This document shows, piece after piece, positions 58,600 through 61,686 of a stretch of DNA of 64,000 nucleotides. Numbering within the stretch: position 1 is the stretch's first letter; each line of letters begins with the position of its first letter. This stretch comes from Microbacterium thalassium (GTDB lineage: Bacteria > Actinomycetota > Actinomycetes > Actinomycetales > Microbacteriaceae): assembly GCF_014208045.1 (NCBI RefSeq), contig NZ_JACHML010000001.1:1984001-2048000 (forward strand), read 5' to 3'. The position numbers were made by a program, and so were the translations under genes. Below the pieces are notes generated by a model. It saw only the letters and a program-made list of their open reading frames with translations, ran no database searches and was not told where the DNA came from.

Positions 58600-59340
58600 A
58601 TGACCGGCACGATCACCCTCACCGCCGACGGTGACACCTTCGGCGTGCACCTCGCGCGCCCGACCGGATCGCCGCGCGGCGCCCTCGTGGTCATCCACGA
58701 GATCTGGGGACTGGTGCCCCACATCGTCGCGGTCGCCGATCGTCTCGCGGCGGAGGGGTACGTCGTGGCGGCACCCGACATCCTGTCGCACGCCGGCGTC
58801 GCGCCGGCGCTCGGCGAGGAGCTGTTCGAGATCATGACCGGCGGCGACGAGGAGCGACGGATCGCCGCCCAGCCGATGATGCGCGAGGCGATGTCGGGGA
58901 TGCGCGCGCCGGACTACGCGGGATGGGCGGTATCGGCTCTGCGCGCCACCGTGGACCTGCTCGAGGCCGAGCCCGGCGTCGACGGCCGCATCGGCGTGAC
59001 GGGCTTCTGCTTCGGCGGCACCTACACGTTCCTGCTCGCAGCCTCCGACGACCGCATCCGCGCGGCGGCGCCGTTCTACGGCACCGCGCCCGCGCCGGAG
59101 CGGATGGCGACGATCTCGGCGCCGGTCCTCGCCCTCTACGGCGCCCACGACCCGGCTCTCATCGACGCCCTGCCGCAGGTGCGCGCCGACATGGCCGCCG
59201 CCGGCGTCGAGTTCGAGGCGGTGGTCTACCCGGACGCGGCGCACGCGTTCTTCAACGACACCGGGCGGCGCTACGACGCGGCTGCCGCCGCCGACGCGTG
59301 GCGGCGGGTCACCGGCTTCTTCGCGGAGCGTCTGGCGTGA
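58600..59340 (+). CDS. Dienelactone hydrolase family protein
   Basis: A 246-aa alpha/beta hydrolase. The catalytic cysteine sits in GVTGFCFGGTYTF (about 128-140), the Asp in LYGAHDPALI and the His in YPDAAHAFFN, the Cys-Asp-His triad of dienelactone hydrolases. The natural ester substrate is unknown, as no aromatic-degradation genes are near. It overlaps the next gene by GTGA. Confidence 0.9.
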   Translation: MTGTITLTADGDTFGVHLARPTGSPRGALVVIHEIWGLVPHIVAVADRLAAEGYVVAAPDILSHAGVAPALGEELFEIMTGGDEERRIAAQPMMREAMSGMRAPDYAGWAVSALRATVDLLEAEPGVDGRIGVTGFCFGGTYTFLLAASDDRIRAAAPFYGTAPAPERMATISAPVLALYGAHDPALIDALPQVRADMAAAGVEFEAVVYPDAAHAFFNDTGRRYDAAAAADAWRRVTGFFAERLA

Positions 59341-60314: not shown

Positions 60315-60339
60315 GTTGCGGATGCCGCGCGCAGGCCGC

Positions 60340-60345
60340 TATCGT
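60340..60345 (+). promoter_or_regulatory. -10 element of the arginine leader transcript
   Basis: TATCGT with a 6-nt gap to ATG 60352, the same spacing as at the leaderless genes elsewhere in the window. Confidence 0.5.
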
Positions 60346-60351
60346 CGGCGC

Positions 60352-60435
60352 ATGCCTTCGGCGGTCACGGGTCTCGCAGCGCTCCTTCCGAGCGCCGTTC
60401 CCGCGCGCCGACGTCTGGGCGGACGCCGACTCTAG
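60352..60435 (+). CDS. Putative arginine-rich leader peptide upstream of argC
   Basis: A 27-codon ORF beginning at ATG 60352 with a leaderless-type -10 element 6 nt upstream. The peptide ends PARRRLGGRRL: five arginines in the last nine residues, using CGC, CGA, CGT, CGC and CGA. CGA and CGT are uncommon in neighbouring genes. It lies 118 nt upstream of argC, and alternative inverted repeats occupy the gap, as expected for ribosome-mediated attenuation by arginine supply. Translation is a prediction; chance occurrence is possible. Confidence 0.5.
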   Translation: MPSAVTGLAALLPSAVPARRRLGGRRL

Positions 60436-60436
60436 G

Positions 60437-60527
60437 CGACCCCGCGCGCTCCCCGCTCCGGCGGGTCGAGGCGCACGGAGTCGCCGCCGCCGATGTTTCC
60501 GCCCCTGTCGCGCGACGCGGAAGGGGC
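60437..60527 (+). promoter_or_regulatory. Possible attenuator structures between the leader ORF and argC
   Basis: CGACCC/GGGTCG (60437-60442 with 60463-60468), and then two mutually exclusive stems: TTCCGC/GCGGAA (60497-60502 with 60517-60522) and GCCCCT/AGGGGC (60501-60506 with 60522-60527). There is no T tract. Competing stems fit attenuation, but the high GC makes small stems common. Confidence 0.4.
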
Positions 60528-60539
60528 CTGCCCAGACTC

Positions 60540-60545
60540 TAAGGT
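60540..60545 (+). promoter_or_regulatory. -10 element just upstream of argC
   Basis: TAAGGT with a 7-nt gap to ATG 60553. If used, argC is also transcribed as a leaderless mRNA independent of the leader ORF. Confidence 0.45.
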
Positions 60546-60552
60546 GGAATCC

Positions 60553-61686
60553 ATGACCTATTCGGTCGCCGTCTCCGGCGCCTCCGGCTATGCGGGAGGC
60601 GAGATCCTCCGGATCCTCGCCTCTCATCCCGACGTCGATATCCGCACCGTCACGGCGCATTCGAACGCGGGCCAGCCGCTGATCCAGCACCAGCCGCATC
60701 TGCGGTCGCTGTCGCACCTGACCCTGCAGGAGACGACCCCCGAGATCCTCGCCGGGCACGACATCGTCTTCCTCGCCCTGCCGCACGGGCAGTCGGGGCA
60801 GTACACCGATGCGCTCGGCGCCGCGCCGCTCGTCATCGACGCCGGCGCCGACCACCGCCTCGAGTCGCAGGACGCGTGGGACGCGTTCTACGGCGGCGCC
60901 TTCCACGAGCCGTGGACCTACGGCGTGCCCGAGCTCCCGGTCGGCGACGGGAAGCAGCGCGAGCGCCTCGCCGGTGCGACCCGCATCGCGGCACCGGGCT
61001 GCAACGCCTCGACGGTGAGCCTGAGCCTCGCGCCCGGCGTGGCGGCGGGCGTCATCGACCCGTCCGACATCGTCACGGTGCTCGCGGTCGGTCCGTCGGG
61101 CGCCGGCAAGAGCCTGAAGACGAACCTGCTCGCCAGCGAGATCCTCGGCACCGCGAATCCGTACGCCGTCGGCGGCACGCACCGCCACATCCCCGAGATC
61201 CGCCAGGCGCTCGCGCACGCGCGGGCGGCCGGCGCATCGTCGGAGAACTCGGCCACCGCCGGAGGATCTGGCTCAGATGCTCCGACGAAGCGCGGATTCT
61301 CCGACGCGGCCGGCGACGACGGCATCCGCATCTCGTTCACGCCCGTGCTCGTGCCGATGGCCCGCGGCATCCTCGCGACCTCCACGGCGCCGATCGCACC
61401 GGGAGGGACGGATGCCGACATCCGCGGCGCGTGGGAGGCCGCCTACGGCGACGAGACGTTCGTGCAGCTGCTGCCCGAGGGACACTTCCCGCGCACCGCC
61501 GACGTGGTCGGCGCGAACACGGCGCTGATGGGGCTCGCGATCGACCGGGCCGCGAACCGCGTCACGGTCGTCACCGCCGTCGACAACCTCGTCAAGGGCA
61601 CCGCGGGCGCGGCCGTGCAGTCCATGAACATCGCGCTGGGCCTTCCCGAAGGCACCGGCCTGACCGTGAACGGAGTCGCGCCGTGA
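60553..61686 (+). CDS. argC: N-acetyl-gamma-glutamyl-phosphate reductase, with an internal insertion
   Basis: NADPH-dependent third step of arginine synthesis. The 377-aa protein has the Rossmann motif [10 protein letters not shown] (8-17), the catalytic Cys150 in [20 protein letters not shown] and [15 protein letters not shown]. Between HARAAG and RISFTPV an Ala/Ser/Gly-rich stretch (about 224-254) is not typical of ArgC and accounts for the extra length over about 345 aa. The insert DNA is flanked by 10-bp inverted repeats. It overlaps argJ by GTGA. Confidence 0.94.
61238..61306. repeat. 10-bp inverted repeats around the argC insertion
   Basis: CGTCGGAGAA at 61238-61247 and TTCTCCGACG at 61297-61306 are exact inverse copies, 49 bp apart, inside the segment encoding the extra residues. 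The segment may be a decayed small insertion or just a linker-like expansion. Confidence 0.5.

Follow-up and report, generated by a model that had tools for sequence, protein, structure and literature searches.

A question raised by the region upstream of argC in Microbacterium thalassium is how this bacterium may adjust its arginine operon to the supply of arginine. In bacteria, control of arginine synthesis is commonly attributed to ArgR. The original prediction, made from the 64,000-nt stretch of DNA analysed here (the window), was of a ribosome-mediated arginine attenuator, in which a short ORF rich in arginine codons is followed by mutually exclusive inverted repeats before argC. The genome that carries the window is a single contig of 3.70 Mb, and the operon downstream of the ORF has the order argC, argJ, argB, argD, argF, a gene for a DUF418-type membrane protein and argH; in the stretch from argF to argH there is no argR. 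Membership of this operon in an ArgR regulon was considered and rejected, as no ArgR gene was matched in the genome. The features on which the argument turns are collected in Table 1.

Table 1. Features of the argC upstream region, in coordinates of the window
Feature	Positions	Strand	Remarks
-35-like element of the leader promoter, TTGCGG	60316..60321	+	18 nt upstream of the -10 element
-10 element of the leader promoter, TATCGT	60340..60345	+	6 nt before the leader ATG; leaderless start expected at the ATG
Leader ORF, 27 codons, stop TAG included	60352..60435	+	ATG 60352-60354, TAG 60433-60435; homologous ORF in 149/197 loci (strict detector)
Arginine cluster 1, CGC CGA CGT (codons -10 to -8 before the hairpin)	60406..60414	+	Arg at each position in 82% of 131 distinct ORFs
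Arginine site 2, CGC CGA (codons -4 and -3 before the hairpin)	60424..60429	+	-3 is CGA in 131/131 and -4 is CGC in 116/131 distinct ORFs
Putative attenuator hairpin, 51 nt	60435..60485	+	arm 2 GGCGAC 60435-60440, arm 3 GTCGCC 60480-60485; -36.3 kcal/mol, equalled by 0/200 shuffles
Spacer to argC, candidate Rho loading region, without U-tract	60486..60540	+	pooled C 47%, G 24% (120 distinct spacers)
AAGG, SD-like site of argC	60541..60544	+	overlaps possible second -10, TAAGGT 60540-60545
argC, first gene of argCJBDF	60553..61686	+	Pfam matches of all seven operon proteins fit

The leader ORF and its distribution

The predicted 27-codon ORF is present upstream of argC. Its peptide ends in ARRRLGGRRL directly before the stop codon and, as had been claimed, five of its last nine codons specify arginine, with two CGA and one CGT among them. 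The distance to argC had been given as 118 nt and measures 117 nt, with the argC ATG at 60553. The ORF was also said to share the leaderless -10 spacing of other genes in the window, and this proved correct: TANNNT lies 5-8 nt before an in-frame start in 17 of 36 likely genes, picked by length and codon composition, versus 2 of 72 out-of-frame controls. In relatives, the distance from the -10 element to the leader start codon is 6 nt in 127 of 134 distinct upstream regions and 7 nt in the remaining 7, within the range of 5-8 nt that the strict detector described below itself demanded for TANNNT. A TTG stands 16-19 nt from the -10 element in 111 of these 134 regions, at 18 nt in 101 of them, and its commonest form is TTGCGG.

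Conservation was assessed in 112 argC upstream regions of a Microbacterium group and 85 from 59 other genera of the Microbacteriaceae. The group takes its name from the nearest named argC relatives of the window, 71 of 80 of which are titled Microbacterium and 9 more broadly, and its 112 loci come from two overlapping collections in which some species occur twice and of which one source gave the best 30 of the matching genomes; identical sequences were merged before any count that we call distinct. The strict detector called for an ORF whose end lay at prescribed distances from arm 2, the two arms of the hairpin, TANNNT at leaderless spacing and an arginine-rich end, and the relaxed detector did not require the hairpin. 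One locus (L146) was excluded as its region lay on the wrong side of argC, and three (L153, L186 and L193) were counted as lacking the leader though leader-like by eye.

The ORF and its run of arginine codons are conserved in close relatives, and a lack of such conservation was one outcome that would have spoken against the original prediction. With the strict detector, 108 of the 112 Microbacterium-group loci and 41 of the 85 loci of other Microbacteriaceae had the leader, and with the relaxed detector 110 and 47, respectively; both were written after the loci had been viewed, which is guarded against in part by control windows from Microbacterium-group loci (strict, 0 of 1529; relaxed, 2 of 2460). 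By one detector or the other the leader occurs in 29 of the 59 other genera, with no sampled genus mixed, and neither detector found it in any of 23 argC regions examined from other families. A pattern search for the leader end with its hairpin returned a single occurrence in the whole genome of M. thalassium. The leader ORF is thus real, above chance.

Several other roles for the region were considered. A small functional protein was rejected, the N-terminal half of the ORF being poorly conserved by eye, and a riboswitch or T-box was ruled out since no Rfam cis-regulatory family reached its gathering score between positions 59000 and 62000, where three matches fell below it. Among loci in which the leader was not called, one from a Microbacterium MAG (L068) lacks it under both detectors and keeps the TAAGGTGGA region before argC, and its upstream sequence looks replaced. 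In other loci without the leader (L141, L151, L154, L173, L183, L195 and similar), a TAGATT often precedes argC at leaderless spacing, in some of them close behind a gene that by eye resembles pheT.

Arginine codons, hairpin and spacer

Counted back from the hairpin over 131 distinct leader ORFs, the frequency of arginine is 89% at codon -4 and 100% at codon -3, and all 131 have at least two arginine codons between -14 and -6. Most remaining positions have frequencies of 0-0.2, with higher values beside cluster 1 (0.39 at -7, 0.28 at -11 and 0.26 at -6). CGG accounts for 3% of the arginine codons in cluster 1, none at site 2 and 17% in the rest of the leader, while in the argC genes of 110 Microbacterium-group loci it accounts for 31% and CGA for 2.8%. 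CGU, CGC and CGA are read by one tRNA-Arg and CGG by its own tRNA, and the scarcity of CGG at the arginine sites suggests that the leader monitors a single tRNA-Arg. Of 149 loci, 132 have the stop codon at the foot of the hairpin; in the other 17 it comes 18-24 nt further on, and some of their peptides end in extra arginine codons (e.g., RRLQATPRR). Whichever stop a locus has, the CGA codon begins 8 nt ahead of the hairpin, so that the regulatory position is more likely CGA than the stop; the strict detector allowed stops almost solely in one frame relative to arm 2, which builds in the fixed frame in part and leaves the identity of CGA independent of it.

The hairpin beyond these codons has a mean energy of -29.5 kcal/mol over 132 distinct loci and a mean z of -3.7 against shuffles. 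Because the detector already requires complementary arms, the interior was also shuffled alone, which gave a mean z of -2.3 for 90 Microbacterium-group loci and -2.2 to -2.3 for 39 others. This comparison took the place of alignment because MAFFT alignments were poor in the variable apical part. That the sequence of the interior is unconserved favours a conserved structure and speaks against an aptamer. Variation is almost absent from the six basal pairs; at one of them, 128 of 149 loci have A-U, 6 have G-U, 2 have G-C and 13 have A-C, and the A-C mismatch in these 13 counts against the proposed attenuator. Covarying stems across the Microbacteriaceae had been suggested as a check. RNAalifold and pair counts showed invariant basal pairs with a single pair changed on both sides, and since the basal pairs are almost invariant, covariation speaks neither for nor against the hairpin and lends the predicted stems no support.

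The mutually exclusive repeats of the original prediction survive in part. CGCC (60424-60427) can pair with GGCG (60435-60438) and shares this arm with the long hairpin, and only the long hairpin is strong. A 4-bp local pairing of this kind is possible in 90 of 103 distinct sequences. Pairing of arginine cluster 1 with arm 2, with energies calculated with T in place of U, was no better than in permuted or synonymous-redraw controls. From arm 3 to argC, structure is at chance level (mean z 0.03 and 0.05), which rules out a 3:4 terminator stem, and the classical arrangement of alternative 2:3 and 3:4 stems was rejected, the local CGCC/GGCG pairing being the sole alternative. A set of competing stems is not what the region shows: a single hairpin is strong, cluster 1 has no selected pairing with arm 2, and support for competing stems before argC is weak. 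The energies of hairpin, spacer and masking were also first calculated with T for U, and recalculation with U gave the same picture.

In the spacer beyond the hairpin, C exceeds G in 120 of 120 distinct sequences. The difference between C and G divided by length averages 0.009 in background windows and 0.028 at the same place in the 48 loci without a strict leader. The bias in the spacer of the window itself lies towards the low end of the range (22 C versus 17 G in 53 nt). In the 20 nt that start 7 nt from the first base of arm 3, the longest T-run is 0-2 nt in 113 of 120 sequences, 3 in six and 4 in one, and near the hairpin of the window it is 3; with T-runs this short, a classical intrinsic terminator of hairpin and U-tract was rejected. 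Across the family, the region combines a C-rich, G-poor, unstructured stretch with no intrinsic terminator, as expected of a Rho-dependent attenuator; the C bias is weak in the window, and Rho is encoded in the same genome. Between arm 3 and argC, at 60500-60530, the window has another inverted repeat rich in G+C, CCCCT ... AGGGG, which by eye the relatives do not share.

A proposed mechanism and its rivals

The region before argC thus holds a short predicted ORF enriched in arginine codons at conserved positions, as a ribosome-mediated attenuator would require. In the mechanism that we propose, RNA polymerase would start at the A of the leader ATG, as the -10 spacing implies, and ribosomes would bind at the leaderless 5' end. 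A shortage of charged tRNA-Arg for CGU, CGC and CGA would make the ribosome halt at arginine codons of the leader. With the invariant CGA in its A site, it would cover most of arm 2, with its leading edge on the 5' arm of the hairpin; the geometry shows this position, and its presumed effect would be to block the hairpin and let transcription continue into argC. When arginine is ample, the ribosome would finish and depart, the hairpin would form and transcription would stop before or early in argC. The lack of a U-tract makes Rho, acting on the spacer, the most likely agent of this termination. Against this step, masking barely alters the computed accessibility of the spacer or of the SD, and the window's own spacer has a weak C bias, so that a link from hairpin to Rho is putative.

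Hairpin probabilities, computed with general values for the length of the ribosome footprint, are 0.65 for the free RNA, 0.62 with the ribosome at codon -9, 0.01 at codon -3 and 0.00 at the stop, the last two forced by the unpaired footprint. A ribosome at the stop would mask arm 2 too. Cluster 1 lies 26 nt upstream of the hairpin, where a ribosome leaves arm 2 unmasked, and this is a misfit to simple masking; stalling there would need a kinetic effect, e.g., through the local CGCC/GGCG pairing. We prefer the polarity in which masking turns the operon on because arginine codons are concentrated where a stall masks arm 2.

An arginine attenuator had been predicted from an ORF, its arginine codons and competing stems; the ORF, arginine codons, promoter and hairpin are conserved and no ArgR was matched in the family, and it is the competing stems that fell short. 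That argC has an arginine-responsive leader peptide is very probable, and these sequence comparisons lend strong support to the core idea of a leader that would sense arginine through stalled ribosomes. Beyond this, how the hairpin would engage Rho, which way the switch runs and how transcription ends are inferred, and the full mechanism, as an attenuator of argCJBDF, stands at slightly better than even.

One rival turns the polarity around, after the manner of trp or speF: a stall at cluster 1 would leave arm 2 free and the hairpin would protect the transcript, whereas a ribosome at the slow CGA or at the stop would mask arm 2, expose the C-rich strand and allow Rho to terminate. The position of cluster 1, at which a ribosome is harmless to the hairpin, suits this reading, as does a stop codon at the hairpin foot, and in Salmonella speF low arginine favours a hairpin downstream of the stop, according to the accessible part of that report (PMC6386406). 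However, the enrichment of arginine at -3 (131 of 131) and -4 would then place stalls where they regulate the wrong way, and the chance-level structure between arm 3 and argC also argues against it. We consider this reversal unlikely, at about one chance in four.

It is less likely still that the leader acts on translation of argC or on decay of the mRNA, with the hairpin serving as an RNase site or altering ribosome access and stalling protecting the message. An RNase could plausibly act on a long hairpin, an SD-like motif precedes argC in all 149 strict leader loci, and arginine-dependent decay is described for speF in the accessible part of PMC6386406. Against translational control, the predicted accessibility of the SD is 0.45-0.47 whatever the position of the ribosome. 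SD sequestration was rejected on these values, and since they are alike in all states, transcription termination ranks above control of translation.

A very improbable alternative is that TAAGGT at 60540 serves argC as a leaderless promoter of its own and that a separate transcript of the leader has no influence on argC. In its favour, TAAGGT or another TANNNT at leaderless spacing precedes argC in 145 of the 149 strict leader loci, and L180, a relaxed leader locus, retains the -10 and lacks the SD-like motif. In the 48 loci without a strict call, argC is preceded by the -10 alone in 23, the SD-like motif alone in 12, both in 12 and neither in one. Yet the remaining four strict loci, together with L127, L149 and L197 (relaxed detector only), lack TANNNT and keep the SD-like motif, and the upstream promoter, arginine codons, hairpin and C-rich spacer are retained beside argC across many genera. 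The constancy of the SD-like motif where TANNNT is sometimes missing favours TAAGGTGGA at 60540 as the ribosome site of a longer mRNA. Transcription of argC solely from this -10, named at the outset as an outcome that would overturn the attenuator, is thereby made less likely, and a second promoter there may still operate.

That the inverted repeat is a DNA operator of some repressor is scarcely credible: the GGCGAC and GTCGCC arms are near-invariant, as an operator would be, but their spacing ranges from 16 to 54 nt, the interior folds above shuffles and the arms accompany an arginine-rich ORF with its CGA codon. A chance ORF, for which one might cite the abundance of arginine-rich frames in GC-rich DNA, is refuted by conservation, by the near-empty control windows and by the invariance of a rare codon, CGA.

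Arginine control across the Microbacteriaceae

The proposed attenuator would stand in place of the ArgR and operators of related families. PF01316 (ArgR) was matched in 0 of 249 Microbacteriaceae genomes from 85 genera, that of M. thalassium included, and 225 of the 249 have a completeness of 90% or more and a contamination of 5% or less; PF02863 (ArgR) was matched in 0 of 100. In an order-wide draw, PF01316 was found in 181 of 184 genomes of other families and in none of 14 members of this one, and in several of the other-family genomes argR lies about 5 kb from argC. ArgR-operator-like sites occur near argC in 15 of 23 other-family loci versus 0 of 197 Microbacteriaceae loci, by a simple pattern written after those 23 sequences had been viewed. 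At five other-family loci (L210, L214, L215, L218 and L222), the leaderless-type -10 of argC lies inside an operator-like TGTATAGTTATGC motif immediately upstream of the start codon, a compact layout for a repressor.

Replacement of ArgR by the leader is not the whole story, since 30 of the 59 other genera of the family have neither by these tests, and argC in such loci may be unregulated or regulated otherwise. In a quick ArgC and ArgJ tree (35 rows with the leader, 30 without and 8 outgroup), at least 13 label changes are needed versus a shuffled mean of 24.6, and the labels are scattered over the family. Together with shared sequence details, this fits one early origin of the leader with repeated loss, a history unproven on a tree with many weak branches. 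A fuller scenario is that ArgR was lost at the base of the Microbacteriaceae and a leaderless-mRNA attenuator gained, with one hairpin, no antiterminator and no U-tract, opened by a ribosome at the invariant CGA 8 nt away, terminated by Rho and reading only the tRNA-Arg for CGU, CGC and CGA; several lineages would later have lost it and been left with neither control. We offer this as a tentative account, somewhat more apt to be wrong in some part than right in all.

The attenuator would cover part of the pathway, since argG (L230) lies apart from the operon and has a leaderless-type -10, TAGAAT, with no such leader. Elsewhere, G000:C1:1585277-1585480 (L231) gave a weak match, below the cut-off, to argininosuccinate synthase in a 696-aa frame.

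Attenuators of the trp and his type have a leader ORF with tandem codons for the end product and 1:2, 2:3 and 3:4 stems. The argC leader resembles them in its short ORF with end-product codons, a stop beside a hairpin arm and a biosynthetic operon downstream, and differs in responding to arginine, in its presumably leaderless mRNA, in having one hairpin and no U-tract and in a further site at the base of the hairpin, where CGA is invariant. ArgR with its ARG boxes has the same operon as its target in sister families, whereas ArgR and operator-like sites were not found in the Microbacteriaceae. In the cys operons of Mycobacterium, the accessible part of PMC1262725 describes leader peptides with amino-acid codons near the stop and no obvious terminator, for which its authors suggested Rho; those leaders differ in sensing cysteine and in having no conserved hairpin. 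The same part of this 2005 survey of Actinobacteria reports no conserved RNA structures upstream of arginine operons (PMC1262725). The orf34 leader of Salmonella speF shares tandem arginine codons, a hairpin just past the stop and an involvement of Rho, but, as far as the accessible text goes, it controls ornithine decarboxylase rather than arginine biosynthesis, in a gamma-proteobacterium and through a leader of about 500 nt (PMC6386406). In Staphylococcus aureus, the arginine codons of the short rbfL uORF sense arginine limitation, but pausing there blocks the start site of a biofilm regulator, a translational and negative effect, by the accessible account (PMC13009471). Titles and abstract openings, in a literature without most subscription papers, gave no description of an arginine attenuator before argC in Actinobacteria; as far as the literature searched shows, the kind of attenuator is known and its one-hairpin, probably Rho-coupled arginine form is new.

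With no ArgR found in any sampled genome of the family and an arginine leader in nearly all Microbacterium-group loci and in about half of the sampled genera outside Microbacterium, our analysis suggests that Microbacteriaceae with the leader sense arginine by ribosome stalling and not through a repressor protein. If that is true, sister lineages would offer a clear natural example of one operon governed by a protein repressor in some and by an RNA attenuator in others, and the argC leader would provide a simple test system for attenuation in leaderless, high-GC, U-tract-poor bacteria.
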